Source: Ampullaceana balthica
Taxonomy: Eukaryota; Mollusca; Gastropoda; Lymnaeidae
Assembly (NCBI GenBank): GCA_944989445.1
Contig: CALYLW010000209.1
Coordinates: forward strand, 273,001-337,000
DNA: 64,000 bases
Reading direction: 5' to 3'
Position numbers and translations under genes: made by a program. The notes under the pieces are model-generated. The model was not told where the DNA came from. It was given only the letters and a program-made list of their open reading frames with translations, and made no database searches. Below, in pieces: positions 8,100-51,045 of this stretch (position 1 is the first letter of the stretch; every line of letters begins with the position of its first letter).

Positions 8100-8163
8100 A
8101 TGGCGCTGCGAGTTTACTTAAAACCGAGTTACACCAGCTCCAGTGAAGCCACTGTCTATGGTG
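8100..8163 (+). CDS. Candidate short exon ending at a tandemly duplicated splice donor
   Basis: An ATG at 8100 opens a 21-codon frame (MALRVYLKPSYTSSSEATVY then G) ending exactly before GTAAGTA, a strong 5' splice-site match. The last part of this frame and the donor are tandemly repeated downstream. The phase (1 nt over) does not fit the first recognised exon of the glutamine-synthetase-like gene, so it is not assigned to it. It may be chance; no homology is recognised. Confidence 0.2.
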
Positions 8164-8310
8164 GTAAGTAAATAACGTTAAACCGAGTTACACCAACTCC
8201 AGTGAAGCCACTGTCTATGGTGGTAAGTAAATAACGTTAAACCGAGTTACACCAACTCCAGTGAAGCCACTGTCTATGGTGGTAAGTAAATAACGTTTAA
8301 CCGAGTGACA
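8121..8310 (+). repeat. 59-bp tandem triplication containing GTAAGT
   Basis: The units start at 8121, 8180 and 8239, with a partial fourth at about 8298. Each full unit carries the block CTATGGTGGTAAGTAAATAA. The units are nearly identical, so the expansion is recent. Confidence 0.9.
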
Positions 8311-9112
8311 CAATACTCATTTTTAAAAATTAATTATCTTGATATAAGAGCACTTTAAAAAAAATATTTACTTTTATATAAATAATCACACTGAATGGAA
8401 AATTCAAAATTAATTTTGAAATTCGTCAAAACCATTTATTAAGTTTAAACAGTTTTGTATGGTTTTATTACAAGTAAATTACGTGGCATTATGCTGGCAT
8501 TAACAAAAAAGATAGAAAAAGATTTAGTGAAGTTGATTATATCAAAGGGCATACGTGATCTTGAAATGACCCATATGGCTCTGAAATTATACTATCATAT
8601 CTGTATATCATTATGAACAATGTGTTGTGATATGAGAGTGAGAGTCCTTCAAGGACCACTCAAACCTTACTAATTTTCTAGCTCCAATCAAATGTAACAT
8701 CTTAAAATGGCAATGAACGATTAACCCAAAATAAAAATCTAAGCTTCGTGCGAACATTAAAAAACTTTCAGTTCAAAATCGTCTAAAAATATTATTGTAA
8801 AAGTAAAGTCAATAATGGTTTCGTACAGTGAACAGTGGTTGGTACTTACATGAACAGTCACAGCAGTTTAAAACTACCCCACTTACAAACTAATGATCAG
8901 CTGAAATGTTAACAGTTAACGCCTGTACGCAGCAGTTTTTCAAAGGTTAAAGGTTACAAAGCTTGTATTTTGTAGAGTTTCAGTCCCTATCAAGTTTACG
9001 CAGGCAATCATCGTGAATCCTATCATTCACACATCCTGCAGTCTGCACACATGTATGTGAATATATGTATCTCACACGCCGTCTGCTCCAGTTCGCAGTT
9101 TGGCAAGAGAGA
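8311..9112. other. No gene recognised
   Basis: AT-rich sequence without recognisable coding, RNA or transposon signals. Confidence 0.5.
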
Positions 9113-13651: not shown

Positions 13652-13824
13652 TGCACCAGTGAAAGCCATGGCAGTAGACAAAGGAAACACGGCCAACATC
13701 CATTTGGAAGACTTTGACCTTGTCTTGTTGACAGCCTGCGACATCCACGGGGTCGCTAGAGGGCGCTTCATATTCAAACCTAGTGTCCAGGGGTTTGTTC
13801 GGGATGGTCTGGGAATGACTCAAG
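13652..13824 (+). CDS. Glutamine-synthetase-like (lengsin-like) gene, exon 1 recognised
   Basis: This is the N-terminal beta-grasp part of a glutamine synthetase fold protein. The exon follows a good acceptor (polypyrimidine, ATGTTGCAG at 13651) and ends at AAG|GTGAGT. The frame reads from an in-frame ATG at 13668, which gives residues 1-52 including the family's D-I-x-G-V-x-R signature (D25-R31). The frame is also open upstream of this ATG to the acceptor, so either an upstream exon exists or translation starts at 13668 after a non-coding first exon. I could not find an upstream exon with the matching phase. It joins exon 2 at phase 1. The whole model has eight exons and about 436 residues, close to the lengsin/GSI length (about 440-510). 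Confidence 0.85.
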
Positions 13825-13951
13825 GTGAGTGGGCTGTGATGTCCGCTTGTATCATTGAAGCTGGAGTTAAAATACTTCTGCTGTATCAGAGAATGTCACA
13901 AATTTGCCTGAACGAAGACACTCAATAGTCCATCTTTTCTGATCTTGTAGA

Positions 13952-14386
13952 CCTTAGGGGGCCCTCCTTAATTGTAATAGACGTCACGCGATTTTGGCCG
14001 ATTCCCCCCACCCCCAAATCGTGATACGTCTTCACAAAAAGTTAGATCCCCTCAAATATGACGTCACAAAGCCTTGCGCCCCCCAGCTCCCAACTGGTAC
14101 AAGCCATGTTTCCTATTTGAAAATGAGCGTGTTTCAAATCACTTTATTGTGATTTCAGTATGTAGTTAGTGCAAGGCTGCACTCTACTATCGTAACACGC
14201 GTGAAGCCATTTAAAGACGTTAAATAAATTGTAAATAATCAAATATTTAAGTGGAACTTTTATTTAAAATTGCGCGTTTTGATGTGACGTCACAGTTCTT
14301 AAACACATTATACCCCTCGTCACACATTGTCACAACCCCCTCATCCTCCTTTGGTGTGTGACGTAATTTATGGACAGCCCCTAAGG
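13952..14386. mobile_element. MITE family C, copy 1 (intron 1)
   Basis: The ends CCTTAGGGG... and ...CCCCTAAGG form inverted repeats. Next to them, GTCCATAAATTACGTCAC-type sequence is shared with family D at 17676 and 18247. Internal TGACGTCAC blocks recur in copies at 54189 and 55860. Non-coding. Confidence 0.65.
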
Positions 14387-14727
14387 ATGCATCGTTTGCT
14401 TAGAGATGTCCTTGTTTATTTTAAGGACATGTATTAAAGCTAGACCAAATCTACACAGTATATACTATTTAAAGAGTGTGAATAATAGGACCAAAAGCTA
14501 GGTTAACATTGTAAAGCTATAATTATCAGTAACACAATAATAAGTTATAACAAAATTGTAAATGTCTAAAATCAGATAGACTAAAACATGATTGGTTTAT
14601 CTGCAAAATTTCAAGCTGGTCCGATTCAAATTAAGAACAAGGTATTTAGGAATATATTTTAATGTTAATGTCCTAATCAGCATGGGAAAGTAGTAGGAGG
14701 CATTCAAAAGCTACACGTTCATTTCAG

Positions 14728-14867
14728 CGTCCCTCTTCTCTGGCATCATGTGTGACATACCAATAAACCTGACAGCCTTCGTCAAAGAAGGCTGGAGAAA
14801 TGGTACAATGATACCTTACACTGACACCCTCAGGCCATTCTCATGGCTCGCATACGGTGGAAAAAAG
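14728..14867 (+). CDS. Glutamine-synthetase-like gene, exon 2
   Basis: Bounded by TTCATTTCAG and AAG|GTAAGA, it continues the frame from exon 1 at phase 1 and ends at phase 0. It encodes residues 53-99, including the SGIMCD segment and the PFSWLAYGG segment. These correspond to the part of GSI/lengsin proteins just before the central barrel. No substitution here decides activity. Confidence 0.85.
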
Positions 14868-14902
14868 GTAAGATAACCTTCAACTACTGGAAGCAAAAGG
14901 TT

Positions 14903-15190
14903 CGTTATCTTATCTTACCTTATCTATACAGACGCTCCTTCTATGCAGAAGTTGACTGCGTCCACAGACCATGACGGATGAGCTTTTGGCAAGTGATGCA
15001 GCGTTCACAGGCCACGGCTTTGTGGGTTCCACGCATTACCCAGCTGCCTAACTAGTGTTACGTACCCATTCGGAGCTTGGTGACTCAGAGACGCCCTAGG
15101 CCCCGGGAACAAATCCTTGCCTTCACATGGATTAGACCACCGTGTCCCCCATCGTGTCGCAAGCCCTGACAGCCAGTTCACTTTTATTTT
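14903..15190 (-). repeat. tRNA-derived SINE, family S1, in intron 2
   Basis: The reverse complement shares the body of the SINE at 6343-6560 (GTGAACGCTGCATC, GTCTGTGGACGCA, GGAGCGTCTGTATAGATAAG) and ends in an AAGGTAAGATAAG tail on the - strand. It accounts for the 77-codon - strand open frame here. Confidence 0.7.
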
Positions 15191-15675
15191 ACAATTCCTT
15201 GCCCAGCCACTCACATAAATTCCAACTCGCACCGCCAATGTTACTGTAAAACATAAACAAGGAAGCTATTGATAACACTACATTTCTAAAGCTAACAATT
15301 TAGTTTCCTTTAAATATCTTTAAAATTTCGTCATATAGACTTACTCATCCAAAAATGTTTTACGGTAACACATATTTTAATTTTAAAAATCATTTAGTAA
15401 ACCAAAATATATGTTCAATAACAGATTATATTTATAGTTTGTTGGTTTTTTGAAAGACCAAAATTATTTTGATTAGCAATGAGAATTACAGAATTAACTT
15501 TGAAGATTTTAAAGAGAAACAGATTATAGAAAAATGTTGCATAATATACAAAATAATTTTTTGTACTGCCTTAATTAATATCTAAAACAATCACTTTATA
15601 CTGGATGTTTACGTAATGTACATTAATTATCATATAGGGCAATTATTATGTCCAGAAACATTTTAATAATTTCAG

Positions 15676-15855
15676 GTAGGACATTTGCTCTGTGACCTTT
15701 TGAATTCACAAGGTGAACCAGAGGTAGCTATGCCCCGCACTGTAGCTCTCTCACAGCTAAAGGCATTAAATGACATCGGTTATGACATCTCTGTCTCAGT
15801 GCAGCTTGAATTTGTCATCTTCAAGAAGAACTCTGTCATGCAAGTTCCGCTTCAC
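15676..15855 (+). CDS. Glutamine-synthetase-like gene, exon 3
   Basis: Encodes residues 100-159 between AATAATTTCAG and CAC|GTGAGT, phase 0 at both ends. The segment L-E-F-V-I-F (143-148) aligns with the family's E-P-E-F-F-L-F. The second Glu is kept (E144) but the first is Gln (Q142). Compared with lengsin, about 15 residues are absent after it, so the loop is shorter or a small exon has been missed in the repeat-filled intron. The last three bases of the exon (CAC) and the donor are the founder of the 18-bp array that follows directly. Confidence 0.85.
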
Positions 15856-17036
15856 GTGAGTACTACCTAACACGTGAGTACTACCTAACAAGTGAGTACT
15901 ACCTAACATGTGAGTACTACCTAACACGTGAGTACTACCTAACATGTGAGTACTACCTAACACATGAGTACTACCTAACACGTGAGTACTACCTAACACG
16001 TGAGTACTACCTAACATGTGAGTACTACCTAACACGTGAGTACAACCTAACACGTGAGTACAACCTAACACGTGAGTACTACCTAACATGTGAGTACTAC
16101 GTAACACGTGAGGACTACCTAACATGTGAGTACTACCTAACAAGTGAGTACTACCTTACATGTGAGTACTACCTAACACGTGAGTACTACCTAACATGTG
16201 AGTACTACCTAACACATGAGTACTACCTAACACGTGAGTACTACCTAACACGTGAGTACTACCTAACATGTGAGTACTACGTAACACGTGAGTACTACCT
16301 AACATGTGAGTACTACCTAACACGTGAGTACTACCTAACATGTGAGTACTACCTAACACATGAGTACTACCTAACACGAGAGTACTACCTAACACGTGAG
16401 TACTACCTAACACTTGAGTACTACCTAACACGTGAGTACTACCTAACACGTGAGTACTACCTAACATGTGAGTACTACCTAACATGTGAGTACTACCTAA
16501 CATGTGAGTACTACCTAACATGTGAGTACTACCTAACATGTGAGTACTACCTAACACGTGAGTACTACCTAACACGTGAGTACTACCTAACATGTGAGTA
16601 CTACCTAACACGTGAGTACTACCTATACATGTGAGTACTACCTAACACGTGAGTACTACCTAACATGTGAGTACTACCTAACACGTGAGTACTATCTATA
16701 CACGTGAGTACTACCTAACACGTGAGTACTACCTAACATGTGAGTACTACCTAACACGTGAGTTCTACCTATACATGTGAGTACTACCTAACATGTGAGT
16801 ACTACCTAACACGTGTGTACAAACTAACACGTGAGTACTATCTAACACGTGAGTACTACCTAACACTAACGTACTACCTAACACATGAGTACTACCTAAC
16901 ACGTGAGTACTACCTAACACGTGACTACTATCTAACACGTGAGTACTACCTAACACTAACGTACTACCTAACACTAACGTACTACCTAACACGTGAGTAC
17001 TACCTAACACGTGAATACTACCTAACACTAACACAC
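15853..17036 (+). repeat. 18-bp minisatellite built on the exon-3 splice donor, about 65 copies
   Basis: The unit CACGTGAGTACTACCTAA starts with the last three bases of exon 3, then the intron's GTGAGT donor. Most units are exactly 18 bp and keep GTGAGT. CAC alternates with CAT, giving CACGTG or CATGTG, so most units also carry an E-box (CANNTG). A few units have an extra base (near 16625, 16690 and 16770). In the exon-3 frame each unit reads V-S-T-T-stop, so use of any donor but the first would truncate the protein. Open frames on the - strand (LGSTHV repeats) are by-products of the array. Confidence 0.97.
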
Positions 17037-17144
17037 TGAAATGTTCATTTAGCAGTTTTTATTACCCAAACCAGCCCCCACGACCATGAATTTCATAAAA
17101 TAAAACATAAAGCAAATTAAAAAACCCACAAAAACAATATTAAA

Positions 17145-17600
17145 CTATATAATTTGCAATTGTCACGCACGTCAGTCAGTCGGTCCTGACGCTACTAATT
17201 TTAGAAAGCAGGGAAAACCAATTTACTGCACCAATGCATCAAAAGGTGTGCAAATTAAAGATGCGCTGTAAAAAAATATTATATGCCGTATTGTTTTCGC
17301 TCATATTTTAATTTTGGAAAAGGGATCAATGTAAAAAGAGGATTTGATGATGGTTAATTATAAAATTAAAAAAAAACTAAGTGGGCGCCGTAGGCGTCCT
17401 ACAACTCCAAAGCCCTATTATAAAATACTTTGTGTACATTTCAGAAAGTTTAATATTTCGTATTTATCAAACAAGGAGAAGTTAGTTGGGCTTTTGAAAA
17501 AGGTCGGCGCCGTAGACGCCCTAAAAAATGTGCATTTTTTAAATAAAATAAATAGATTTCAGCTGAAAACTTCCTTCATTTTCGACGGGTGATACGCTAG
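17145..17600 (+). mobile_element. Non-autonomous Helitron-like element in intron 3
   Basis: Homologous to 2701-3115 in the opposite orientation (shared: GACGCTACTAATTTTAGAAA, ATGCATCAAAAGGTGTGCAA, GACGGGTGATACGCTAG). It ends in CTAG followed by T at 17600 after an imperfect hairpin. No coding capacity. Confidence 0.6.
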
Positions 17601-17675
17601 TGTTTATATAAATTATTTGTGTTCTAAAAATTGGAAGTAAATATACCAACATGAATAAAATATTGTTTTTGCTGC

Positions 17676-17936
17676 TTCAACCATTAAGTACGTCACGCTC
17701 CAGAGGGGGGAGGGGGTGTAAGAAAGTGTGACAATTTGTGACAGGAGAGAGGGGGGGTCCGGCCATGTGTGACGTCACGGTGTTTTATATTAAATTTTAA
17801 TTATTTTTTAAATAAAAAACCAAATTTTTGTTCGAAAGTGTGACGTACTTTAGTTTTCCGAGATTTGTTACACTTTGTGATAGGGGGAGTTTAAAATTGT
17901 CAAAAATAGCGTGACGTACTTTATGGATGGCCCCTA
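17676..17936 (-). mobile_element. MITE family D, left arm of an inverted pair
   Basis: Begins with AAGTACGTCACGCTCCAGAG and ends GTGACGTACTTTATGGATGG then CCCCT. Its reverse complement closely matches 18247-18503. With that copy it brackets exon 4. Confidence 0.75.
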
Positions 17937-18067
17937 TCATATATTTTCACTGCAAATTATTCAAAGACATATCAAAAACATAAATGCTAACTTATGTCCC
18001 GCTCATATTGTCTGCAAGAAACAGTCGTAGTTATAATGTTATATATTCTAAAGCTTTTCTAACCCAG

Positions 18068-18169
18068 GAGGACATCTCTCAGCTGATCAACACATTATTG
18101 AGGGAACTCCGCAACAGCAGCATTCCTGTTTTATCTGTTGGAAAGGGAGCTGAGCCAGGTAAACTCCAG
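18068..18169 (+). CDS. Glutamine-synthetase-like gene, exon 4
   Basis: 102 nt, phase 0 on both sides, between TTCTAACCCAG and CAG|GTAATA, encoding residues 160-193. It ends in P-G-K-L-Q (189-193), the counterpart of the family's P-G-Q-F/N-E loop. The conserved Gln is Lys and the metal-ligand Glu is Gln. Skipping this exon would keep the frame and delete 34 residues. An upstream extension of the open frame (17984-18067) lacks a phase-compatible acceptor and is treated as intron. Confidence 0.8.
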
Positions 18170-18246
18170 GTAATAGATATTATGGTTCGTATGTCACTAC
18201 GTCCCTTAAATTACCTTTAGGCATCTCTAAGTTTACAATCTAAGAA

Positions 18247-18503
18247 AGGGGCCGTCCTTAAAGAAGGTCACGCTATTTTGACCATTTTTACCCCCCCTCC
18301 CCCCTGTCACAAATCTTGGACAAAGTGTGTCACACTTTCGAACAAAAATTTCTTTTTTATTAACAAAATAATTAAAATTTAATATAAAACACCGTGACGT
18401 CACACATGGCCAGACCCCCCCCCGCGCCCCTGTCACAAACTGTCACACTTTCTTACACCCCCCCTCTGGAGCGTGACGTACTTAATGGACGACCCCAAAT
18501 ATT
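18247..18503 (+). mobile_element. MITE family D, right arm of an inverted pair
   Basis: Begins GGGGCCGTCCTTAAAGAAGG and ends GAGCGTGACGTACTTAATGG then ACGACCCC. It is the inverted partner of 17676-17936, with long pyrimidine-rich (CCCCCCTCCCCC) interior blocks complementary to the purine-rich blocks of the other arm. Confidence 0.75.
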
Positions 18504-18870
18504 TTTTCTAGCTTGGTCATTTTATCTGCATAATGAGATAAATCACATTAATTTTGGGAAATATATAAAGCACCATTATACAAAAGTAATTAAGTTTCTA
18601 TTATATAGGGTGAATAAGATTGACAAAGAAGTAATCAAATGAAATCTTTAGAAATCTTTATTTCATGTTTCTATGTAGTAAAACGTGCATTACAAATTTA
18701 TTTCCAGTGATTCATTTGAGCCAGTTAGATGAAAATGTTGGATTAAATATATTTATAAGATATGGAGAAACTTGATGCAGTGCATAAAATTTAATTTTTA
18801 AAACTTTTAAAGCCTGGAATCAAACGTTTAAAGCTTAACACGGTTCATTAAGGAATGAAATTAATTTCAG

Positions 18871-19049
18871 ATATCACTGGAACCCTTACATGGAATTGAA
18901 CTGGCTGATTGCCTCCATCGCCTTCGTAACATGTTAAAATCTTTGTGCGCTAATGCTGGATATGAAGTCACATACATGACAAAACCATTGCCCAATATAA
19001 CTAAAAGTAGCAGCACGTATACTTACACGCTTATTGACAAGGAAGGACG
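18871..19049 (+). CDS. Glutamine-synthetase-like gene, exon 5
   Basis: Acceptor TTAATTTCAG, donor ACG|GTAACA; residues 194-253. The start I-S-L-E-P and the helix with G-I-E-L-A-D fit the stretch after the P-G-Q-x-E loop in this family, and Y-x-x-T-Y-M-T-K-P-L (224-233) fits the A/T-F-M-x-K-P strand. The family's G-S-G-M-H-x-H motif is replaced by a Ser/Thr/Tyr run (239-246), so the catalytic His is absent. Confidence 0.85.
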
Positions 19050-19441
19050 GTAACAGTAATATAATAATAATTACAGTTTTTAATAATTTTTATTCCTGCT
19101 ATTAAAAAAAAACAAAAAAAACTTAGAAATTCATTATAGTGTCATACAGCTTAGTTAGGCAATGCAAATATTTATTTACAACATGTATCAGACATTGAAA
19201 TAGTTCCAGAAAAAAGGCCTTTAATGAGATTATTATACTTGTGACTTGTTAAGGATGACATTTTCAATCTCTAAGAGAATGGTGTGTAGGAATTCATTTT
19301 AACACCTGCACTTTTGTTTCTTTCATTTATTATATTGTTGCAGTGAGAAAAAACTGGTGTGTAAATATCTAAATAACAAACAAAACATTTTTTGTAAATT
19401 TGCAAGTAATTTTTTATTCGTATATTTTCTCTTTCAATCAG

Positions 19442-19624
19442 AAATGTATTTGCAAGTTCTAAAAACAAACACGAATTATCAGAAATAGGTCAACAGTGGC
19501 TGGCTGGTTCATTGACACACCAGTCTGCCATGACAGCTCTACTTCGACCTACTTTGAATTGTTACACAGGAGAGTCAAATGAACAAGATCTTACGATCTC
19601 ATGGACTTCGAAGTCATCAAACAG
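19442..19624 (+). CDS. Glutamine-synthetase-like gene, exon 6
   Basis: Acceptor CTTTCAATCAG, donor AACAG|GTTTTT (a weak donor, but phase 2 matches the next exon). It contributes residues 254 to 314. Q-W-L-A-G (271-275) and the L-R-P-T-L-N-C-Y segment (287-294) match the family's F-x-A-G-L and P-x-x-N-S-Y/C-K-R segments. The exon ends within S-N-R (312-314), the conserved Asn-Arg of the N-R-S-A motif. Confidence 0.85.
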
Positions 19625-19913
19625 GTTTTTAAAAGCATATAAACCTTGGGTACAAATCCCAAAATCCAATTTTTTAATGAAGAAAAAATGGAAGTTACTA
19701 AAAAAAAACACACACACAATTTTAAAAATGTCTCTTCTCATTGAGGAGCCCTTTTTATAAAGCAGAAAGAAAAATCTTAGTTTTAAAAAACCCTAAATAT
19801 TGTTATGGAATGAATAAAATTAAAAACGCCACACTTTGAAATGGTAAAAATATAATTATACATAAGACATACTTTTTTAATGGTCATGGTAAATGTTAAA
19901 ATTTCAATTGCAG

Positions 19914-20064
19914 AGCAGCCAGAATAAAACTGGAACTGACGAGTGATGGCCCGTACATTACAGATAACCTTCCCACCCTAGCAGGTAATCCATACATTGT
20001 ACTTGGTGCCATTGTGGCAGCTGGCATCAATGGACTTGCCACTAAACTTTCTCTTCCAGCTGAG
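19914..20064 (+). CDS. Glutamine-synthetase-like gene, exon 7
   Basis: Acceptor TTCAATTGCAG, donor GAG|GTAAAT; residues 315-364. A-G-N-P-Y-I-V-L-G-A-I-V-A-A-G-I-N-G (337-354) is a clear match to the family's A-N-P-Y-L-x-x-A-A-x-x-A-G-L-D-G block. Just before it, the I-E-V-R-x-P-D active-site strand reads I-T-D-N-L-P-T (329-335), losing the Glu and Arg. Confidence 0.88.
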
Positions 20065-20251
20065 GTAAATTCTTTTACAAGATTTCTGCATAAGCATTCA
20101 TGCTGTCCGGGTTTAGATAAATAATGCCTGAAGCAGTCTGTTCACTTTAAGTCAGTGCTGTCATGTTTGATTTTTCAACTTGGAAACTTTTGTGACAAGC
20201 AAATTGCAAATTTTCATTGAACCTAAAAAAGTTTATAAATACATATTTCAG

Positions 20252-20470
20252 TTGAGTGATTCTCAATCAGCTCTAAAAGGTCCCATATCATTACTTGAGT
20301 CTCTATCAGCTTTGGAGAAGGACAGTGTCTTCAATTCAGGCTTTTTTTCTAAATTTGTCGAGCGCTTCATCCTCCTTAAGAAAGAATTTGAAATTGGGCG
20401 GCTAGAAAAGAAGAAAGACTCAGAAGATAGACTTACTTTTGAGAGGTCAATATACTTGAAGTGTCTGTAG
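20252..20470 (+). CDS. Glutamine-synthetase-like gene, terminal exon 8
   Basis: Acceptor ACATATTTCAG at 20251, phase 0; it runs to a stop at 20468-20470. It encodes the C-terminal helices (residues 365-436). L-K-G-P-I-S-L-L-E-S-L-S-A-L-E-K-D fits the family's P-x-x-L-x-x-A-L-x-x-L-x-x-D, followed by a charged helix ending E-R-S-I-Y-L-K-C-L. The length and the end agree with lengsin-type proteins. Confidence 0.85.
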   Translation: MSDSQSALKGPISLLESLSALEKDSVFNSGFFSKFVERFILLKKEFEIGRLEKKKDSEDRLTFERSIYLKCL

Positions 20471-25512: not shown

Positions 25513-25998
25513 ATGCCTCCTAAACGTCGCAAACCATACACTGAGGCTGAGATTGCGGCATGCTGAAAATCAACGTCGCCGTAGAGCAGTCATGACTGAG
25601 GATCTCCGTACACAACAAAATGCGACTAAAGCTGAAACTCAACGTCGCCGTAGAGCAGTCATGACTGAGGATGTGCGTACACAACAAAATGCGACTAAAG
25701 CTGAAACTCAACGTCGCCGTAGAGCAGTCATGACTGAGGATGTGCGTACACAACAAAATGCGACTAAAGCTGAAACTCAACGTCGCCGTAGAGCAGTCAT
25801 GACTGAGGATGTGCGTACACAACAAAATGCGACTAAAGCTGAAACTCAACGTCGCCGTAGAGCAGTCATGACTGAGGATGCGCGTACACAACAGCGGGAT
25901 CTCGGTCCCTCATGTGCCACAGATCTGAACAAAGCGCTAACAGCTGCGATAGATCTTTTGCTGGATCTCGTTATCATGATGCAAACATTTAAGGTCTG
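25513..25998 (+). pseudogene. STPR-like 23-residue repeat protein, frame-broken
   Basis: After an acceptor-like TTTTTCAG (25505), an ATG at 25513 starts MPPKRRKPYTEAEIAAC and stops at a TGA at 25564. One base out of frame, the sequence continues as AENQRRRRAVMTED and then tandem 69-bp units, each encoding 23 residues (AETQRRRRAVMTEDVRTQQNATK), about five units to about 25895. It ends with a 33-residue unique tail and a stop at 25998. A 23-residue, Arg-rich helical repeat of this type recalls the STPR (score-and-three) DNA-binding repeat known from FMBP-1. The units are nearly identical in DNA, so they expanded recently. The 1-nt shift suggests a pseudogene, although an unrecognised splice is possible. 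Function is inferred only from the repeat. Confidence 0.55.
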
Positions 25999-26475: not shown

Positions 26476-26818
26476 AAATAACATACCTATAAGTATTAAA
26501 TTAACTTTCATATCACAACAAACACAAAAAATTACAGTACATTATACATTATAATTTACAGGCCGTGATGTTGTCCTCATAAATCTACAGTTGGAGTTTG
26601 ACTTACTAAAGTTGTGAGCCATGTTATTATTTACTAAATTTACAGGCTGTGTTATTGTCTTGCTAAATTTACAGGCCTTGTTATTGTCTTACTAAATTTA
26701 CAGGCCGTGTTATTATTTTACAAAAGTTACGGGCTGTCTTACTAAAAATTATACTCTCCGTATTTTGTTCACGCCCCGGTGACCGCTTTACACTACGTTT
26801 TCCTCTATTCTTCCACAG

Positions 26819-33350: not shown

Positions 33351-34107
33351 GTATATGTAAATAAATCATAAAAACCAAGAAACAATTTTTTTTAAAAAAA
33401 AGAATACCCAGTGTCGTTAATGACTAATATTCAAAATAGCCTCTCCATGAACAATGATTTAACTAATGATCTTTAGAAAAATAGCAAAAAGGTGTCGGCT
33501 GAAATAGACAATTAAGGACCCGTAAAGCTTACATTTAATTGGGGACTTTTATGACAGTAGGGACAATTGGGATAACGGATCAGTTGAGAGTCGGAGAACA
33601 GAGCACGGCTTAGAGTGTAGGAGACGTTGACAGATTTGATGAGACGTTGTGGTGACGAGTGGGCATATAAGTTATTGCATCATAGATGTAATGGATAAAA
33701 GAAAAGAGAACAAATTGCACAAATTGTAGCTAGAGGATTAATATGCAAAAAGAGATAAACAGAGAGAGGCAAGGAGATGGAGACCGCGTATTTGTTTACC
33801 ACGTGTTTCTTGGTTATATACAAAAGCAGAGGCGTCACTAGGGTTGGTGTCACAGTGTCACCCTGTGTGGTAGCTCATGGTTTCAATACCTCGCGATTTA
33901 CCCCATAGACCTCCACCGAGTCTGCCTGTGACAAATAATGCGAAAATAACGAATTTACTCTTTGGTGTCACCATGTGTGACGGAGTCACCTGGTGCGGTC
34001 CTGACCTCCCGCTCCCCCCCCCCAATGCCTCGTACAAACGGCAGCGGTACAATCACTACAGAGACAATTTTGTTCGCTACAACATATTTTACTTTTTCCT
34101 TCATTAG
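33351..34107. other. Probable intron of the F-box gene
   Basis: No coding signal apart from a weak 76-codon overlapping frame. It ends with a good acceptor, TTACTTTTTCCTTCATTAG at 34107. Confidence 0.4.
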
Positions 34108-34215
34108 GTTTGTAAGACTTGGAATGAAGGCTTGAACGACCCATCACTTTGGAGAGACAGAGTCTTTCAATTTCAAGGAAGCAATGAAAGCATTCTTTAC
34201 AAGTTGGAGTCAAAT
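34108..34215 (+). CDS. F-box protein gene, second exon (partial)
   Basis: Directly after the acceptor the frame reads V-C-K-T-W-N-E-G-L-N-D-P-S-L-W-R-D-R-V-F then Q-F-Q-G-S-N-E-S. This is the classic second half of an F-box (V-C-K-x-W-x-x-x-x-x-x-P-x-L-W-R) and continues the segment at 33231. After L-E-S-N the sequence merges into the tandem satellite at about 34210, so the 3' end of this exon and the rest of the gene are not visible. The gap that follows may hide them. Confidence 0.65.
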
Positions 34216-34964
34216 GTGGTCTTAGTACGACATCATCATAGTCCTATGTTTCTAACATCTTACTTACAAACGTGGTCTTAGTACGACATCATCATAGTCC
34301 TATGTTTCTAACATCTTACTACAAATTGGTGGCCTTAATATCACTACATCATCATAGTCTATGATTCTAAACATCTTACTTACAAACTGGCTAACGGTCT
34401 TAATACTACACATCAATGGTCCTATGTTCTACATCATCTCACTTTACCAAATGGTGCGGTCTTACTTAATACTACAACATCATCATAGTCTATGTTTCTA
34501 ACATCTTTCGTCACAAATGGTCGCCTCTATATCTACACTCATCATAGTCCTATGTTACTAACATCTTACTTTACCAAACTGCTGTGGCCTCATACGACTA
34601 CATACATCATCATAGTCCTCTGTTTCATAACACATCTTACTTAAAATGGTGGCCTTACATACTACATCATCATAGTCCTATGTTTTCTTAACATCTTACT
34701 TCCAAACGGTGGTTCCGTAATACTACATCATCTAGTCCTATAGTCTAACATCTTACTGACAAATGGTGGCCTTAATACTACATCTCATAGTTTCCTATGT
34801 TTCTAACATCTTATCTTACACGGTGGCCGTTACATACTACATCATCATAGTCCTATGTTTCTAACATCTTACTTACAAATCGGTGGCTTAATACTACATC
34901 ATCATAGTCCTATGTTTCTAACATCTTACTTACAAATGTGGCCTTAATACTACTTCATCATAGT
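34205..34964 (+). repeat. 58-60 bp satellite with irregular, error-like variation
   Basis: The unit contains TACATCATCATAGTCCTATG, TTTCTAACATCTTACTTACA and AAATGGTGGCCTTAA, about 13 copies. Most differences are single-base insertions and deletions (for example CATCATCATAG versus CATCTCATAG), as in unpolished long-read sequence. The array abuts the assembly gap. Confidence 0.9.
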
Positions 34965-35399: not shown

Positions 35400-35625
35400 G
35401 GGTGAAGACTTCCTTAAAGACACCGTTGGCCAAATGGAGGGGGGGTGGGCAAACGACTGTGAGTGAATGAAAAGAAGGAACTCTGGAGAGAGCAACATAC
35501 AATTGTCATGACTGAAAACAGGTTTTGGAAGATACAGGCATATCTTTTGAACGTTTGGCCCTGTGCTTTATTTATTGTCATGGCAAAGGCTAATCTCACA
35601 GGGAATTGTCTGCGCGTAAAAAGTA
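35400..35625 (-). pseudogene. Helitron copy 1, helicase C-terminal part, frame-broken
   Basis: After the stop that closes the 580-codon helicase ORF, another frame gives R-R-Q-F-P-V-R-L-A-F-A-M-T-I-N-K-A-Q-G-Q (helicase motif V region). A further frame then gives Q-L-Y-V-A-L-S-R-V-P-S (motif VI). These belong together in Pif1-like Helitron helicases, so two frame changes separate them here. Confidence 0.75.
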
Positions 35626-35630
35626 AAATG

Positions 35631-37373
35631 CTAATTTGAATCTGATGGAGTGAGGGATATCCGGGGAATAAGGACAGTTTGCGAGGTAGCAGCTGCGATA
35701 GTTTTACACTCCAGTACGTTGAGGTGAATGCTGGTAACAGTCAGTCTAGTGCCATTACAGAGACCTCTTGCTGGCATGAGGTTTCTAAGAAGCATGACCA
35801 CTGAACCAATTTTAATTTTCAGTTTATGCGGAGGCATGCCAGTAGGGGTAAGACTGTTCAGAAATTCTTCGGGGAATGAAAGTTGATCTGCGGGATCATC
35901 TGTGACGATGGAGTCAACGCTGGTGAAAGTTACTTCGTCGGTTGGGATACGTTTCAATACTTGTTCATTCAGGTGCAGGGAGTCTTCGTTCGTGACACTT
36001 AATATAGCTCGCGTACTGAGTTGTTCCCACGTGACAGTTGAGAAGTCGAGGTCGGCATATAGTTGTTGAACGGGATCAGAATGAACAGGAAAACAATGTG
36101 AAGGTAATGTTACAGGAGTTCCATTTGTCCCGTCTCCAACATCGAGAAGCCATTTTGCGAAATGTTGTTCATCAGGAAGAGCTCTCATATTTTTCGTCAG
36201 TGTAAGTACATGCATGTGACGCCACAAAGATTGCTTGTTAATGCAACTGGCGACAGTGAGTGCTCGGGAGCAACGCATAATAACGGAAAGTATTTGTCGG
36301 AAATCTCCACCCAATAGTTTTGTTTTCCCTCCAAATGGGTGCGTCTCACATGTGAGATCACGTAACAACCTGTCAACTGCCTGGAATGCGTATGCATGTG
36401 TCATTGGCGCCTCGTCCCATATAATCAATTTGGATTGCAGAATATGTTGCGCGTGTTGCGAGTTAGGTTTGATATTGCATGTTGAAGTAGTAGTGAGCTT
36501 CAACGGTATTTTAAACACAGAATGTGCAGTACGTCCACCCGGTAACAATGTTGCTGCTATTCCTGTTGATGCAACGGTTATAGGATTGTCTCCCCTGGCT
36601 CTGATTGTATGAATCAGGGTTTTGTAGACAAAGGTTTTCCCTGTTCCTGCGGGACCATCTAAGAAGAAGCAGGTTTGTAGCGGATGGGAGTCGTTGTATG
36701 CAGCGTCCAAAACAGTGTCAGCAGCGTGCTTTTGTTCTGTGTTGAGTTTGTCGTAGTGTTCCATAGCGTGGGAGTGTTCAGCCTGAGCGTCGAAGACGGA
36801 AGATGAATGACACATTGGAAGAATATCAGTGAGGGGTAGGTGTAATTTGTGCAGGTTGAGGCCATGTGGTTGGAGCATGTCATTTATTTCTGCGAGAGCA
36901 TACATGCAAGCGGTGCGTGTGGAATATTTTCTGAGAAAGTCCTCAGAAAGGGAGAGTTTATGCGTGTCCCAAAGGTGTGGAACGTTATGTGGTTCGCCGA
37001 AGACACAGACGAAAACGAAAAGTTGTCGCAAGAACGGTGGCATTCGTATCAGAGATGCCTCTGTAAGAGTATCATGCCATATCTTGTCGTCTTTAAGAAG
37101 ACCCAATTGTTGGCACGCCTCTTTGAAAGTGTTACATTCCACGCCGTTGACAGTTCGTAGAAGGTTGAAATTTGTGACGCCTACGGAACGGGTAAGGAGA
37201 AGCCTGAGGTAATAACGTTCGGTGTCGTTAATGGCAACAACAGGCATTCTACCATTTTGTGCCTCCTCTAATTCTCTTTTGCCATTTTCCAGAGGATTGT
37301 TGGAATGTGTAATGTTGGGGAACATCAGTGTAATGTAACTCCACAGCTTCAGGATCGGTCTTGTTGAGTTCAA
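35631..37373 (-). CDS. Helitron copy 1, Pif1-like helicase ORF (580 codons)
   Basis: Superfamily 1 DNA helicase domain of a Helitron Rep/Hel protein. Walker A is G-P-A-G-T-G-K-T (residues 240-247), Walker B is I-I-W-D-E-A (317-322), and motif III is G-G-D-F-R-Q (355-360). The ORF lacks motifs V-VI, which follow in other frames. Its first 30 or so codons overlap the end of the Rep ORF in another frame. It differs from copy 2 by Asn instead of Ser at residue 68. Confidence 0.88.
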   Translation of the reverse strand: MNSTRPILKLWSYITLMFPNITHSNNPLENGKRELEEAQNGRMPVVAINDTERYYLRLLLTRSVGVTNFNLLRTVNGVECNTFKEACQQLGLLKDDKIWHDTLTEASLIRMPPFLRQLFVFVCVFGEPHNVPHLWDTHKLSLSEDFLRKYSTRTACMYALAEINDMLQPHGLNLHKLHLPLTDILPMCHSSSVFDAQAEHSHAMEHYDKLNTEQKHAADTVLDAAYNDSHPLQTCFFLDGPAGTGKTFVYKTLIHTIRARGDNPITVASTGIAATLLPGGRTAHSVFKIPLKLTTTSTCNIKPNSQHAQHILQSKLIIWDEAPMTHAYAFQAVDRLLRDLTCETHPFGGKTKLLGGDFRQILSVIMRCSRALTVASCINKQSLWRHMHVLTLTKNMRALPDEQHFAKWLLDVGDGTNGTPVTLPSHCFPVHSDPVQQLYADLDFSTVTWEQLSTRAILSVTNEDSLHLNEQVLKRIPTDEVTFTSVDSIVTDDPADQLSFPEEFLNSLTPTGMPPHKLKIKIGSVVMLLRNLMPARGLCNGTRLTVTSIHLNVLECKTIAAATSQTVLIPRISLTPSDSN

Positions 37374-38076
37374 ACCAAGCTAAGAGCATGGTGCTTTTGT
37401 TGGCCTGTATTTGTAGCGCTCGTTCTTCGTGACCCTCATGAAAGAAGACGACTTTTTGTTCTGGCAAATGAACTGGTAATCGTGTAATAACGTGCGATTT
37501 TTCTGAAAGACTGTACTCGTTCAAACGCCACATAGCCTCAGGAGGACTAACATACCAACCATCAAGGAAAGTTTGTATTTCGTCATGTTGGAAAACACCA
37601 TCGGCTGGCTCCTTCTGAAGTGCAATGGATGCAGCGTCGTGTCCTTTGTAGACATACTTATATAGATACTTGATACATTGAATGAACGCGCACACTTCAA
37701 CGTTAATGTGAGCATTGAATTTCTGAGAAAGCCAGGGATTGTAAGGTACTATCCAACGATTATCGATGTCGTATTTGGCAACAATGGCAGTTGTGCCCTG
37801 TATTCGGCGGTATATGGGGTATCCTTGTGTGTTTTCTTGTGTCTCGGCGATGAAGTCCTTTGGGGAACTTTTGGTGCACTTGCCGTCTTTCATGCAAGGT
37901 GAGTTGGCATTGAGCGTGCCACACGGACCATGTACCATGCATTTAGTGATAATTTGGAAAAGTCGAGGGTGAATTTCGGGATTTGGAAGCTCAGCGCAGA
38001 CATATTTGTCTATGTCATCTTTGGTACTTATTTTGCACTGTGAATCAAGTGTCAGTAACATATGGCAATGAGGCAA
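37249..38076 (-). CDS. Helitron copy 1, Rep region with HUH motif
   Basis: Open frame of 275 codons whose start is not an ATG (a Leu codon); the frame runs open upstream. L-P-H-C-H-M-L-L at its beginning is the HUH metal-binding motif of rolling-circle Rep nucleases, preceded in frame by A-Y-I-F-V-I-E-F-Q-K-R-G. Y-L-Y-K-Y-V-Y-K-G-H lies in the region of the catalytic tyrosines (two Tyr, Y-x3-Y). It ends W-Q-K-R-I-R-G-G-T-K-W, overlapping the helicase ORF. In an intact element this would be one protein with the ORFs on both sides. Confidence 0.85.
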   Translation of the reverse strand: MPHCHMLLTLDSQCKISTKDDIDKYVCAELPNPEIHPRLFQIITKCMVHGPCGTLNANSPCMKDGKCTKSSPKDFIAETQENTQGYPIYRRIQGTTAIVAKYDIDNRWIVPYNPWLSQKFNAHINVEVCAFIQCIKYLYKYVYKGHDAASIALQKEPADGVFQHDEIQTFLDGWYVSPPEAMWRLNEYSLSEKSHVITRLPVHLPEQKVVFFHEGHEERALQIQANKSTMLLAWFELNKTDPEAVELHYTDVPQHYTFQQSSGKWQKRIRGGTKW

Positions 38077-38114
38077 GCCTCGTTTTTGGAACTCAATGAC
38101 GAAAATGTATGCGA

Positions 38115-39491
38115 CTACATTGCCGAAAATATTCCTCTCCAGAATGTCAGGAACTCCCGAAGTTTGATATGAAAGACGCGGGCAACGACATCAGGTCTGT
38201 GTTCCGGGCGCTCATGATGGGAAATGGCGTTAGAGATTTCCGGCCAAGCAGGACTGCAGGTGAATGTTAGGAATAAGTCAGGCTTTCCACACTTGCGGAC
38301 AATTGCCATCACGTCTTGGTAGTTATGTTGCATGTACCGTGGACTGCCTTGAAACGTAGAGGGAAGAATGATCAACTGTCCAGGGCGAAGGTTATTGTCT
38401 TGTGCTTTCGCAGCGATAGCATCCATCAGTCCCCTGTATTGTTCTACGCGCAAATCTTGTTGATGGGAGCGTAGGTAATGTAAACGTGCGCCTTCTGTTC
38501 TGACATATTCGTCGACGACATATTGCTGGAAGAGTTTGCCGCTGGAATGCAAGATGCTGAATGCAGATGTCATGGCAAGCCTGTAAGCATACAATTTGAG
38601 TTGTGTGACTCGGGTTGTGTTCGCGGTTTGCTTTTCTTCAACATGGATCAATTGTATGTGCCAGCCTGGATCTCCGTAATGGAATATTAGTGGATAAACC
38701 ATGGGGTCACAGTTCATATTGAGTACAGAGATACGCTTGCAAGCATCTCCTCTTGGGTATATGCAAATATCGCGTTGTGCAGGAGGTTCCCCGTCTTCCC
38801 CTACAAAGATAGCAGCAACATCAGTTTGACAGGATGGCGCGTTATACCTTCTCATATCCAGAGTTGGATTTTCCATGAACACCATTCGTACAGCAGCAAC
38901 AGGGTTATTATGAGTGATAATTTCGTGCATTTGCATGTAGGATTTAGCGAAGGGGTTAACCTGTCGTAAAATTTTGTCTAGTTGCAATAACAACATATCA
39001 CTGCAAGCACTGTTACAATCGTTTTGCAAACGTTGAGTGGTAGCCTCAGCAGAATCGAAGATATATAGTTGACCGTATCGAGGGGGCTTGTTAGGATTGG
39101 TATACAATGGAGAGACTTGATGATAAATTTGACCGTGGATTCGGAAAGCATACGGTCCATGGACAGGTGGTTGAGCGATGTGGGCGCCCATTGATGCGAA
39201 AGCTAAAGCAGAGTTGTATTCCCTGATACGATCACAGAAATGTCGGGACAGCGGATTCTTGCCACTCAAGAGGTTTTGTAATAAAGGAGGAGTTTGGGAT
39301 AGCGGTGGCAAAGATACTTTGCCGTGACGACAACACTTAGTATAATGTCCGGATTTGTTTACCTCTGATGGCCAATGAAGAGCATTGCAAGAAGTACATA
39401 GTGCGGTAGGTAGTCCAATGTTGTGTTCCTCGATGGGAATGGCAGTGTGTTCTTGAAACGCAGCCGAAAGTTGAATGCGATTAATGTGCAT
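38115..39491 (-). CDS. Helitron copy 1, Rep N-terminal ORF (458 codons)
   Basis: Matches the Helitron helitron-like N-terminal region. A C-x2-C ... H-x-x-x-C-C zinc-binding segment (TALCTSCNALHWPS; HYTKCCRHGK) is followed by F-C-D-R-I-R-E-Y-N and P-R-Y-G-Q-L-Y-I-F-D. Later come Y-P-L-I-F-H-Y-G-D-P-G-W-H and L-P-S-T-F-Q-G-S-P-R-Y-M. Upstream the frame is open into a C2H2 finger (ECVHCKRSFKQCHLLANHMH). The ORF ends by frameshift just before the HUH segment. Residue 16 is Thr here and Pro in copy 2; a Ser in an I-L-H-S-S-G segment is Asn in copy 2. Confidence 0.85.
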   Translation of the reverse strand: MHINRIQLSAAFQEHTAIPIEEHNIGLPTALCTSCNALHWPSEVNKSGHYTKCCRHGKVSLPPLSQTPPLLQNLLSGKNPLSRHFCDRIREYNSALAFASMGAHIAQPPVHGPYAFRIHGQIYHQVSPLYTNPNKPPRYGQLYIFDSAEATTQRLQNDCNSACSDMLLLQLDKILRQVNPFAKSYMQMHEIITHNNPVAAVRMVFMENPTLDMRRYNAPSCQTDVAAIFVGEDGEPPAQRDICIYPRGDACKRISVLNMNCDPMVYPLIFHYGDPGWHIQLIHVEEKQTANTTRVTQLKLYAYRLAMTSAFSILHSSGKLFQQYVVDEYVRTEGARLHYLRSHQQDLRVEQYRGLMDAIAAKAQDNNLRPGQLIILPSTFQGSPRYMQHNYQDVMAIVRKCGKPDLFLTFTCSPAWPEISNAISHHERPEHRPDVVARVFHIKLREFLTFWRGIFSAM

Positions 39492-39499
39492 GTGGTTTG

Positions 39500-40073
39500 C
39501 GAGAAGATGGCACTGTTTGAAAGAACGTTTGCAATGTACACACTCAAAGAATATGTCATGGCTGTGTTTTTGTATGTTTGTTGAGAAGAGATGATGTTGT
39601 GAACGATTCAGTGCTGTATTGACACTGGAAGGATTTCGTCAGGGCATGTGTTTTCAAATGGTTAGTAAGATTTCTGTGTGCGTGAAACTGTCGCAAATGC
39701 TGCAAAGAAATGTTGTTGAATGTGTTTCTACATGTACATGTTTAGTTTGTAAGTGCTTCTTGAGAGTGCGAATTGTTTTGAAGCATTGCTGGCAATGGTC
39801 ACATTGCGTCATTCGTTCAGTGGAGTGTGTTTTTAAATGTGCGTTGAGATATCTCTGGAGGCGGAGGGTTTTGGAACAAATGGTGCATATAAAGTCCTCT
39901 GTGGGATGCGTTTGTTCACTTGAGTGTCTTTTTAAATGTGCGTTGAGATATCTCTGGAGTCGGAAGGTTTTGGAACAAATGGTGCATTTAAAGTCCTCTA
40001 TGGAATGCGTTTGTTCACTGGATTGTTTTTTTAAATGTGCATTGAGATTATATTTTTGTGTGAACTGTTTAGA
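39500..40073 (-). pseudogene. Helitron copy 1, C2H2 zinc-finger region, broken
   Basis: The - strand encodes several C2H2 fingers, for example F-K-C-T-I-C-S-K-T-F-R-L-Q-R-Y-L-N-A-H-L and Q-C-D-H-C-Q-Q-C-F-K-T-I-R-T-L-K-K-H-L. The first finger continues in frame from the OTU ORF, but its second Cys codon is TGA (the OTU ORF stop) and its first Cys is Tyr. Two later frame changes separate the fingers from the Rep ORF. The 155-codon + strand frame here is only its complement. Confidence 0.75.
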
Positions 40074-40691
40074 TCAAATGTTGTAATGAAATTCCGGCGT
40101 TTGTAAATGTTCATCAGTAACAGGAGAGTGGGAAGTTGAAGTCAGATCAGTGTGGAGATCACATGGATGTTTAATGTTGGTGCACTTGCCGACGTTGTCA
40201 ACAGATGACACCAGAAGGTCATCACGTGGGTTTGTGACAGGCAAGAGAACTTCATAATGGCCATGATCCAAAGGACCGCTAAATAGCAGGGATATGGAGA
40301 GACGTTGACCCGGATTGTAAACTCGAGGTGGGTCATGCGGACGTTCTCGGAAGTGAATAGTGATAGTAGCGGGAATTATTTGAGACATCGCCACAATTTC
40401 AGCCTCGCCACCATAAACGCCGGAAGTATTCGTGTACGCAGCGTATTGTCGAGCTGAGTGTATGACTGTGCTTCCGTGAGTAGGAACAACGGACAGGGCG
40501 TCGCCATAGTTATCCCAATGTTCGCAAACAAATCTTACAGCCATCTTGCGAAGTTCGAGAGCAACAGTTTCGTCGATGACATTTTTCCAGAAATATGCGA
40601 CAGATAGAAGTAAACAGTTACCTGATGCAGGAATTTCGACTACACTGAAAGACCCGTTGACTCCACGAAATATATGTGAAGCGGTAGCCAT
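40074..40691 (-). CDS. Helitron copy 1, OTU-domain ORF
   Basis: Starting at the ATG at 40691 (the frame is open a little upstream). P-A-S-G-N-C-L-L-L-S-V-A-Y-F holds the OTU catalytic Cys (C26 from this ATG). G-V-Y-G-G-E-A-E-I-V-A-M is the conserved central segment and D-H-G-H-Y-E-V-L-L-P carries the catalytic His (H145). OTU domains are cysteine proteases, often deubiquitinases, and are known companions in a branch of animal Helitrons. Residue 14 is Ser here and Phe in copy 2. Ends at the TGA described in the zinc-finger entry. Confidence 0.85.
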   Translation of the reverse strand: MATASHIFRGVNGSFSVVEIPASGNCLLLSVAYFWKNVIDETVALELRKMAVRFVCEHWDNYGDALSVVPTHGSTVIHSARQYAAYTNTSGVYGGEAEIVAMSQIIPATITIHFRERPHDPPRVYNPGQRLSISLLFSGPLDHGHYEVLLPVTNPRDDLLVSSVDNVGKCTNIKHPCDLHTDLTSTSHSPVTDEHLQTPEFHYNI

Positions 40692-41029
40692 GGTTAGGAA
40701 ACGAAGGGCAATACGAAGGGGCAAAATCAAAACAAAGCTTCTGGGACAAACGAAGAGAACAATGGAAAGACAACGTGGCTCAGACGACTGTAGAAGATAA
40801 CAAAGCGACTGAGGACACAGCTTGAGCTTGAGCGACTGAGGTACACACTCCTAAGGGCACACACTATTACGCATGCCTTGAGAGGTGGTGTTTATGTTCG
40901 CTAAGAAAGGGGGGGGGAAAGAACGGGCAAGAAAAAAAGGTGAGGGGGAGAACGGACACAAACAGTAGCACGAACAAATGGGAACAACGCGAGTGAACGT
41001 TGGGGGACCACCGAAGAATTTTTGATAAG

Positions 41030-41175
41030 TATTTCGGACATCGCCACAATATATAAACAAATATTACAGCCATGAAGCCAAGTTGGAGAGCAACAACTTC
41101 GTCCATGCACGAAATATTCGACCAATAGAAACAGACAGGTACCTGGTGAAGGAATTGATATAACATTGAACTAAG
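41030..41175 (-). pseudogene. Helitron copy 1, decayed second OTU module in the leader
   Basis: The - strand reads V-I-S-I-P-S-P-G-T-C-L-F-L-L-V-E-Y-F and, one frame over, D-E-V-V-A-L-Q-L-G-F-M-A-V. Both parallel V-V-E-I-P-A-S-G-N-C-L-L-L-S-V-A-Y-F and D-E-T-V-A-L-E-L-R-K-M-A-V of the intact OTU ORF. It lies 5' of that ORF and is frameshifted, so it is a relic of an internal duplication. Confidence 0.7.
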
Positions 41176-41261
41176 CTTTTTTCCGTGTCATGCGAAGCGG
41201 TGTTTATGTTTGCTAAGAAAGGGGGGAAAAGAACAGTCATTAGCATTTTTAAAAATAAAAA

Positions 41262-41350
41262 AAAACATATGTTGCCGCTTGGGCTTGAACCTAAGACCTT
41301 CAGCATGTCAGGCGGATGTAATAACCAATACACTACGAAATACATACACA
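41262..41350 (-). repeat. Helitron copy 1, tRNA-Val-like segment
   Basis: The - strand reads GTAGTGTATTGGTTATTAC (A-box region), CGCCTGACATGC (anticodon stem-loop, anticodon GAC) and GGTTCAAGCCC (B-box), the order and spacing of a tRNA-Val. Mismatches in the stems make it a captured tRNA-derived piece and not a working tRNA gene. Confidence 0.6.
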
Positions 41351-41547
41351 CTGAGCAGGAACATCAAAAGTGAATGTAAAAAACATTGTTGCTCTCAAGA
41401 CATGCCCCACTCCACCGCTACCTTCGCTTGCCAAACGTTAACTGTGTTTAGTTGACCCGAGCGAGGGTCATTCGTCATGCTCGGTTGCACATATTTTTGC
41501 AGCTTACTTGCCTGGCATGGTCCCATGAAGAGAATTATATATATAGA

Positions 41548-45261: not shown

Positions 45262-45494
45262 TAGTGACGGGTGAAGACTTCCTTAAAGACACCGTTGGCC
45301 AAATGGAGGGGGGGTGGGCAAACGACTGTGAGTGAATGAAAAGAAGGAACTCTGGAGAGAGCAACATACAATTGTCATGACTGAAAACAGGTTTTGGAAG
45401 ATACAGGCATATCTTTTGAACGTTTGGCCCTGTGCTTTATTTATTGTCATGGCAAAGGCTAATCTCACAGGGAATTGTCTGCGCGTAAAAAGTA
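45262..45494 (-). pseudogene. Helitron copy 2, helicase C-terminal part, frame-broken
   Basis: Same arrangement as in copy 1. The motif V segment (L-A-F-A-M-T-I-N-K-A-Q-G-Q-T) and the motif VI segment (Y-V-A-L-S-R-V) lie in different frames. The motif VI frame ends at a TAA at about 45262, a few bases before the terminal hairpin, which is the expected end of the ancestral protein. Confidence 0.75.
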
Positions 45495-45499
45495 AAATG

Positions 45500-47242: not shown

Positions 47243-47945
47243 ACCAAGCTAAGAGCATGGTGCTTTTGTTGGCCTGTATTTGTAGCGCTCGTTCTTCGTG
47301 ACCCTCATGAAAGAAGACGACTTTTTGTTCTGGCAAATGAACTGGTAATCGTGTAATAACGTGCGATTTTTCTGAAAGACTGTACTCGTTCAAACGCCAC
47401 ATAGCCTCAGGAGGACTAACATACCAACCATCAAGGAAAGTTTGTATTTCGTCATGTTGGAAAACACCATCGGCTGGCTCCTTCTGAAGTGCAATGGATG
47501 CAGCGTCGTGTCCTTTGTAGACATACTTATATAGATACTTGATACATTGAATGAACGCGCACACTTCAACGTTAATGTGAGCATTGAATTTCTGAGAAAG
47601 CCAGGGATTGTAAGGTACTATCCAACGATTATCGATGTCGTATTTGGCAACAATGGCAGTTGTGCCCTGTATTCGGCGGTATATGGGGTATCCTTGTGTG
47701 TTTTCTTGTGTCTCGGCGATGAAGTCCTTTGGGGAACTTTTGGTGCACTTGCCGTCTTTCATGCAAGGTGAGTTGGCATTGAGCGTGCCACACGGACCAT
47801 GTACCATGCATTTAGTGATAATTTGGAAAAGTCGAGGGTGAATTTCGGGATTTGGAAGCTCAGCGCAGACATATTTGTCTATGTCATCTTTGGTACTTAT
47901 TTTGCACTGTGAATCAAGTGTCAGTAACATATGGCAATGAGGCAA
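47118..47945 (-). CDS. Helitron copy 2, Rep region with HUH motif
   Basis: Identical in protein sequence to the copy 1 counterpart. The HUH motif P-H-C-H-M and the Y-L-Y-K-Y-V-Y-K tyrosine segment are both present. It overlaps the helicase ORF by about 125 bp in another frame, which marks a frameshift. Confidence 0.85.
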   Translation of the reverse strand: MPHCHMLLTLDSQCKISTKDDIDKYVCAELPNPEIHPRLFQIITKCMVHGPCGTLNANSPCMKDGKCTKSSPKDFIAETQENTQGYPIYRRIQGTTAIVAKYDIDNRWIVPYNPWLSQKFNAHINVEVCAFIQCIKYLYKYVYKGHDAASIALQKEPADGVFQHDEIQTFLDGWYVSPPEAMWRLNEYSLSEKSHVITRLPVHLPEQKVVFFHEGHEERALQIQANKSTMLLAWFELNKTDPEAVELHYTDVPQHYTFQQSSGKWQKRIRGGTKW

Positions 47946-47983
47946 GCCTCGTTTTTGGAACTCAATGACGAAAATGTATGCGA

Positions 47984-49360: not shown

Positions 49361-49368
49361 GTGGTTTG

Positions 49369-49942
49369 CGAGAAGATGGCACTGTTTGAAAGAACGTTTG
49401 CAATGTACACACTCAAAGAATATGTCATGGCTGTGTTTTTGTATGTTTGTTGAGAAGAGATGATGTTGTGAACGATTCAGTGCTGTATTGACACTGGAAG
49501 GATTTCGTCAGGGCATGTGTTTTCAAATGGTTAGTAAGATTTCTGTGTGCGTGAAACTGTCGCAAATGCTGCAAAGAAATGTTGTTGAATGTGTTTCTAC
49601 ATGTACATGTTTAGTTTGTAAGTGCTTCTTGAGAGTGCGAATTGTTTTGAAGCATTGCTGGCAATGGTCACATTGCGTCATTCGTTCAGTGGAGTGTGTT
49701 TTTAAATGTGCGTTGAGATATCTCTGGAGGCGGAGGGTTTTGGAACAAATGGTGCATATAAAGTCCTCTGTGGGATGCGTTTGTTCACTTGAGTGTCTTT
49801 TTAAATGTGCGTTGAGATATCTCTGGAGTCGGAAGGTTTTGGAACAAATGGTGCATTTAAAGTCCTCTATGGAATGCGTTTGTTCACTGGATTGTTTTTT
49901 TAAATGTGCATTGAGATTATATTTTTGTGTGAACTGTTTAGA
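49369..49942 (-). pseudogene. Helitron copy 2, C2H2 zinc-finger region, broken
   Basis: Same finger order, same TGA in the first finger and same two frame changes as copy 1. The identity of the lesions shows that they predate the split of the two copies. Confidence 0.75.
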
Positions 49943-50898: not shown

Positions 50899-51045
50899 GT
50901 ATTTCGGACATCGCCACAATATATAAACAAATATTACAGCCATGAAGCCAAGTTGGAGAGCAACAACTTCGTCCATGCACGAAATATTCGACCAATAGAA
51001 ACAGACAGGTACCTGGTGAAGGAATTGATATAACATTGAACTAAG
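50899..51045 (-). pseudogene. Helitron copy 2, decayed second OTU module
   Basis: Same relic as at 41030-41175, with no difference noticed. Confidence 0.7.

Follow-up and report, generated by a model that had tools for sequence, protein, structure and literature searches.

How an intron comes to begin with dozens of copies of its own 5′ splice site, and which of these donors the gene then uses, are the questions raised by intron 3 of a lengsin-like gene in the snail Ampullaceana balthica. We examined this gene within a 64,000-nucleotide stretch of contig CALYLW010000209.1 (here called the window). A preliminary description had counted about 65 tandem copies of the exon 3/intron 3 junction at the head of the intron and had let the array run to 17036. 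Tandem Repeats Finder reported an array at 15853-17028 (period 18, 65.2 copies, 92% matches, 1% indels), and decomposition into individual units yielded 65, which confirmed the copy number; the array proper, however, stops at 17025, and the bases at 17026-17036 are flanking sequence similar to a broken unit. With the boundary taken from our gene model, each unit corresponds to the last 3 bases of exon 3 plus the first 15 bases of intron 3. The consensus, CACGTGAGTACTACCTAA, is found exactly in 23 of the 65 units, and CATGTGAGTACTACCTAA is found exactly in another 19. An intact GTGAGT is retained in 52/65 units and a GT at +1 in 56/65, compared with 21 occurrences of GTGAGT in the remainder of the window when both strands are counted. 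When the 15-base core was searched for with up to three mismatches allowed, all 62 matches in the window fell within the array (mean of 1.65 matches over 100 shuffles). An exact-match search of viral_contigs with a 26-base stretch of the array returned no copies.

The donors had also been described as lying in a single register. This holds for units 1 to 43 and 52 to 65 but not for units 44 to 51: one extra base is present in each of units 43, 47, and 51, placing units 44 to 47 in phase 1 and units 48 to 51 in phase 2 (Table 1). The shift hardly matters, because unit 1 already holds an in-frame stop.

The host gene was modeled by eye, with reading frames and splice signals as guides. The resulting model comprises eight coding exons (13668-20470; 436 residues), has no internal stops, and shows GT-AG boundaries at seven of seven introns; an acceptor-like site preceding coding exon 1 points to a possible non-coding exon further upstream. 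The model protein matched PF00120, the glutamine synthetase catalytic domain, at 133.9 bits (cut-off, 24). A protein search that scored 8000 candidates yielded four proteins, the best of which was a Lymnaea stagnalis protein named Lengsin (P0001; 80% identity, full length), followed by proteins from Bulinus (P0002; 52%) and Bradybaena (P0003; 48%) and one unnamed protein with 22% identity. These relatives appear to be predictions, and the L. stagnalis protein is either an ortholog or a paralog of the model. The domain match above the cut-off, together with a relative that covers 100% of the query, places the host protein in the lengsin/glutamine synthetase C domain family, a kinship that concerns the host gene only and is uninformative on the array. 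In an alignment with a glutamine synthetase of solved structure, the HMH of the enzyme, which we take to be a His motif with a role in the enzyme, is replaced by YTY in the snail model, suggesting that the lengsin-like protein is likely a pseudoenzyme.

Table 1. Coordinates of the lengsin-like gene model and of the 18-bp array in intron 3
Feature	Position in window	Strand	Basis
Coding exon 1, lengsin-like gene	13668..13824	+	Gene model, homology
Coding exon 2	14728..14867	+	Gene model, protein alignment
Coding exon 3, 180 nt, phase 0-0, 3′ end ...CTT CAC	15676..15855	+	Gene model
18-bp minisatellite, 65 units, each copying the exon 3/intron 3 junction; 52 keep GTGAGT	15853..17025	+	
First donor GTGAGT, needed by the coding sequence	15856..15861	+	Gene model, gap-free junction
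Intron 3, 2212 nt, of which the array makes up 53%	15856..18067	+	Coordinates of gene model and array
Units 44 to 51, register shifted by the extra base of units 43 and 47; phase 0 returns after the extra base of unit 51	16628..16773	+	
Last 12 units, GTGAGT lost in 7/12	16810..17025	+	
Coding exon 4, 102 nt, phase 0-0	18068..18169	+	Gene model
Coding exons 5 to 8, with stop	18871-19049, 19442-19624, 19914-20064, 20252-20470	+	Gene model, PF00120

To determine where the array came from, we compared its left edge with the coding sequence of related snails. The 18-base period reaches back exactly three bases into exon 3, that is, to the last codon, and the bases before this codon are out of register. 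In the model, exon 3 ends with PLH and exon 4 starts with EDIS. The junction reads SLHEDIS in L. stagnalis, ALHEDTS in Bradybaena, and SLKENL in Bulinus, and it is gap-free across the model and these three other snail proteins. The model, L. stagnalis, and Bradybaena share the terminal His of the exon, with Lys in Bulinus; by this comparison, the His codon at the end of exon 3 probably predates the array. The three-base reach into the exon and the shared His therefore support growth of the array from the exon-intron junction, as the preliminary description had proposed, and we infer an array-free ancestral intron from the predicted-looking proteins of the relatives. For 12 arrays and the 14 splice boundaries of this gene, the number of array edges expected to fall by chance within 3 nt of a boundary is approximately 0.037; the 12 were hand-picked from the tandem-repeat list (period of at least 10, approximately 3 or more copies), with low-complexity rows such as 6810, 22612, 30776, 53488, 53493, and 53509 omitted. 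Under growth from the junction, intron 3 of a lymnaeid ortholog is expected to open with a single GTGAGTACTACCTAA-like start or with a short array.

Because the exon 3/4 junction is gap-free in the three other snail proteins, the first donor is the one needed by the coding sequence. This bears out the earlier expectation that the gene needs an exact choice of the first donor; translation past copy 1 gives V-S-T-T-stop in frame, as had also been described. Duplex energies were calculated with what we took to be the 5′ end of U1 RNA. Donor 1 scored −7.2 kcal/mol, a value equaled in 27 other units and lying inside the range of the gene's other six donors (−5.2 to −11.8 kcal/mol), and its predicted openness ranked 54th among the 65. 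On the tie in U1 duplex energy and the low openness rank, a predicted advantage of the first donor in strength or openness was rejected. No excess of RNA structure was detected at 15796-16160, which covers approximately 17 units (z = −1.21; 12/100 shuffles folded as well), and a special structure of this folded part was rejected on the same grounds. On general principles of splicing, exon definition and first-come binding of U1 during transcription remain as what may favor the first donor.

A gene of this sort had been thought undescribed. That view is wrong, since lancelet mirages and human ABCA7 have the same architecture. In amphioxus, exon-intron boundaries of Adh3, TnC, globin, and PGBD5 genes have been copied in minisatellite-like fashion, giving so-called mirages, with units of 10 to 72 bp in Adh3 and with 6 and 3 units of 150 to 160 bp in two haplotypes of the globin gene BflGb6; these papers report length instability and state that regular splicing is undisturbed, without aberrant mRNA (PMC3087553, PMC3902484). 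The snail array likewise consists of tandem units that span an exon-intron boundary, as placed by our gene model, and carries a splice signal in many of them; at the protein level, its junction agrees with splicing that the array leaves undisturbed. The systems differ in that amphioxus is a cephalochordate in which either the donor or the acceptor side is repeated, and in that the globin cases described have few long units, whereas the snail has 65 short ones.

The human counterpart is a variable-number tandem repeat (VNTR) in intron 18 of ABCA7, for which the available text describes a 25-bp unit whose first two bases are the donor GT of exon 18, with 23.7 units in hg19 and between about 12 and 427 among typed individuals (PMC5954066). 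According to the same text, a transcript retaining one unit, which arises from use of the second donor and acquires a premature stop, accounts for 2 ± 1% irrespective of VNTR length, and longer arrays show more skipping of the in-frame exon 19 and lower expression (PMC5954066). As in ABCA7, the snail array lies at the canonical donor of the preceding exon and every unit repeats that donor; it begins three bases before the donor, whereas the frame-shifting 25-bp unit is described from the GT, without exonic bases, and ABCA7 is unrelated to lengsin. The effect of length on exon 19 skipping was measured in ABCA7, whereas any such effect in the snail is a prediction. The snail array is therefore a striking addition to a class already described, and no new mechanism, in a host that is new among the cases compared, and gastropods join lancelets and human as animals with a minisatellite that probably grew from a 5′ splice site. 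The available text of an earthworm metallothionein paper mentions intronic minisatellites and describes no donor array (PMC12783039).

The reading that we favor, and to which we assign a good probability, is that a mirage-type minisatellite grew from the junction, that the first donor is used normally, and that the gene puts up with the array as a minor leak. Tandem duplication at the exon 3/intron 3 junction of the lengsin-like gene would have yielded the minisatellite. Normal mRNA would be spliced from the first donor, in keeping with what the coding sequence needs, and this donor would likely win because the end of exon 3 is set by the exon itself and U1 encounters donor 1 before the others. 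Splicing at donor 2 or later would append the four residues and the stop, which should direct the transcript to nonsense-mediated decay; a small leakage through unit 2 to the premature stop is thus predicted, and the array would be tolerated. Skipping of exon 4 would stay in frame, because this exon is 102 nt long with phase 0-0. If array length matters, the human precedent points to reduced output and exon 4 skipping and not to the use of successive donors. The ABCA7 data, which suggest that a second donor is seldom used and that array length affects the exon that follows, are the best forecast available for the snail, so little use of later donors is expected and exon 4 is the exon to watch. 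With so many near-identical donors in a row, the gene is a natural setting in which to ask how the spliceosome selects the first among identical sites and whether the length of the array influences the following exon, as it does in ABCA7.

We then examined the sequence history within the array. The order of units recurs beyond that of shuffled units at lags 8, 14, and 18 (P = 0.004, 0.027, and 0.0315, respectively, uncorrected for 30 lags), and these excess matches indicate internal block duplication. The most variable site is the CpG at the junction, where 21 units have T in place of C and 4 have A in place of G, the pattern to be expected if a methylated CpG had decayed and its variants had spread. 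GTGAGT is lost in 7/12 of the last units compared with 6/53 of the first (Fisher P = 0.001 for a cut picked post hoc), and a scan over cuts supported donor loss toward the 3′ end (P = 0.004). Three of the seven late units without the donor carry one common variant (CACTAACG...). Selection against acceptor-proximal donors was considered and rejected, because shared variants imply few events and ordinary edge decay is enough. Block duplication and a decayed 3′ end fit ordinary minisatellite behavior. Over the whole array, donor columns 5 to 9 were changed in 14/325 cells compared with 11/585 in columns 10 to 18 (P = 0.036), with a single shared variant supplying 9 of the 14 changes; in the first 53 units, the corresponding counts were 2/265 and 7/477. 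Donor columns thus vary more over the whole array and slightly less in its first 53 units, a mixed picture that supports neither selective upkeep nor purging of the donors.

An adaptive role for the donors themselves deserves weighing against growth and tolerance. The array could act as a U1 decoy, binding many U1 snRNPs and slowing removal of intron 3, with copy number setting lengsin output under selection. The abundance of intact GTGAGT relative to the rest of the window, an exon 4 that can be skipped in frame, and the slightly lower change of donor columns in the first 53 units are all consistent with such a device, as is the available account of ABCA7, in which such length can go with reduced expression and with skipping of the exon that follows (PMC5954066). 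Against it stand the greater change of donor columns over the whole array, mostly owed to one variant, and lancelet mirages that are reported, in the text available, without aberrant mRNA (PMC3087553, PMC3902484). We regard selection on copy number as unlikely, and give a similarly small chance to the version in which the 52 donors form a length-variable rheostat, with U1 occupancy slowing intron 3 removal and promoting exon 4 skipping or decay and with copy-number mutation tuning lengsin output. Were it true, donor VNTRs would be a recurrent regulatory device across animal phyla.

Arrival of a ready-made minisatellite at the junction, for example from a transposable element, with its first unit becoming the donor, seems to us improbable. 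The window is rich in tandem repeats, intron 3 itself contains an apparent dispersed repeat near 17690-17935 with a relative in opposite orientation in intron 4 (18240-18500; both identified by eye), and only three exonic bases are shared, a match that an inserted array would attain by chance in 1 case in 64. Such an insertion must nevertheless have hit the junction exactly and matched the last codon of the exon by chance, and the core of the array has no copies elsewhere in the window; an ortholog intron starting with GTGAGTACTACC once would not be expected from it. We give still less credence to a function at the DNA level, in which the array would serve as an intronic enhancer or a transcription factor sink. 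It contains 33 copies of CACGTG, which we take to be an E-box core, compared with 11 in the rest of the window, and 21 of the E-box-like CATGTG. CACGTG, however, arises wherever CAC meets the donor GTG, so no separate cause is needed, and it is lost at the CpG in 25/65 units through the substitutions described above. Least probable of all is an assembly artifact that inflated the copy number or misplaced the array. The assembly does have weak places, as indicated by a 60-bp array at 34211-34964 that has 14 to 15% indels and adjoins a 412-N gap, and that looks to us like uncorrected long reads; the 18-bp array, in contrast, has 1% indels, an identical insertion that recurs in three units, and variants specific to particular units, and both of its flanks lie inside a gene model without an internal stop.

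Several other repeats in the window were recorded. At 8121-8311, a 59-bp unit present in 3.2 copies contains three GTAAGT, each after a potential coding-exon end (ATG at 8100, MALRVYLKPSYTSSSEATVYG), making this a possible second boundary minisatellite; a Pfam search with the short peptide from this region found no match. The 60-bp array noted above starts close to where a likely F-box exon ends (34105-34964), where a peptide joined from two predicted exons gave an F-box-like match (E = 9e-07). At 26618-26741, about 4 copies of a 29-bp unit end in TTACTAAATTTACAG, which resembles a branch point plus acceptor. Two closely similar blocks on the minus strand, approximately 9.9 kb apart (35417-41363 and 45286-51233), contain reading frames of equal lengths (582, 313, and 507 amino acids) and are perhaps Helitron-like. 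Finally, a 69-bp unit at 25562-25893 (4.8 copies, 98% matches) carries an open frame that encodes a 23-residue repeat (ETQRRRRAVMTEDVRTQQNATKA).
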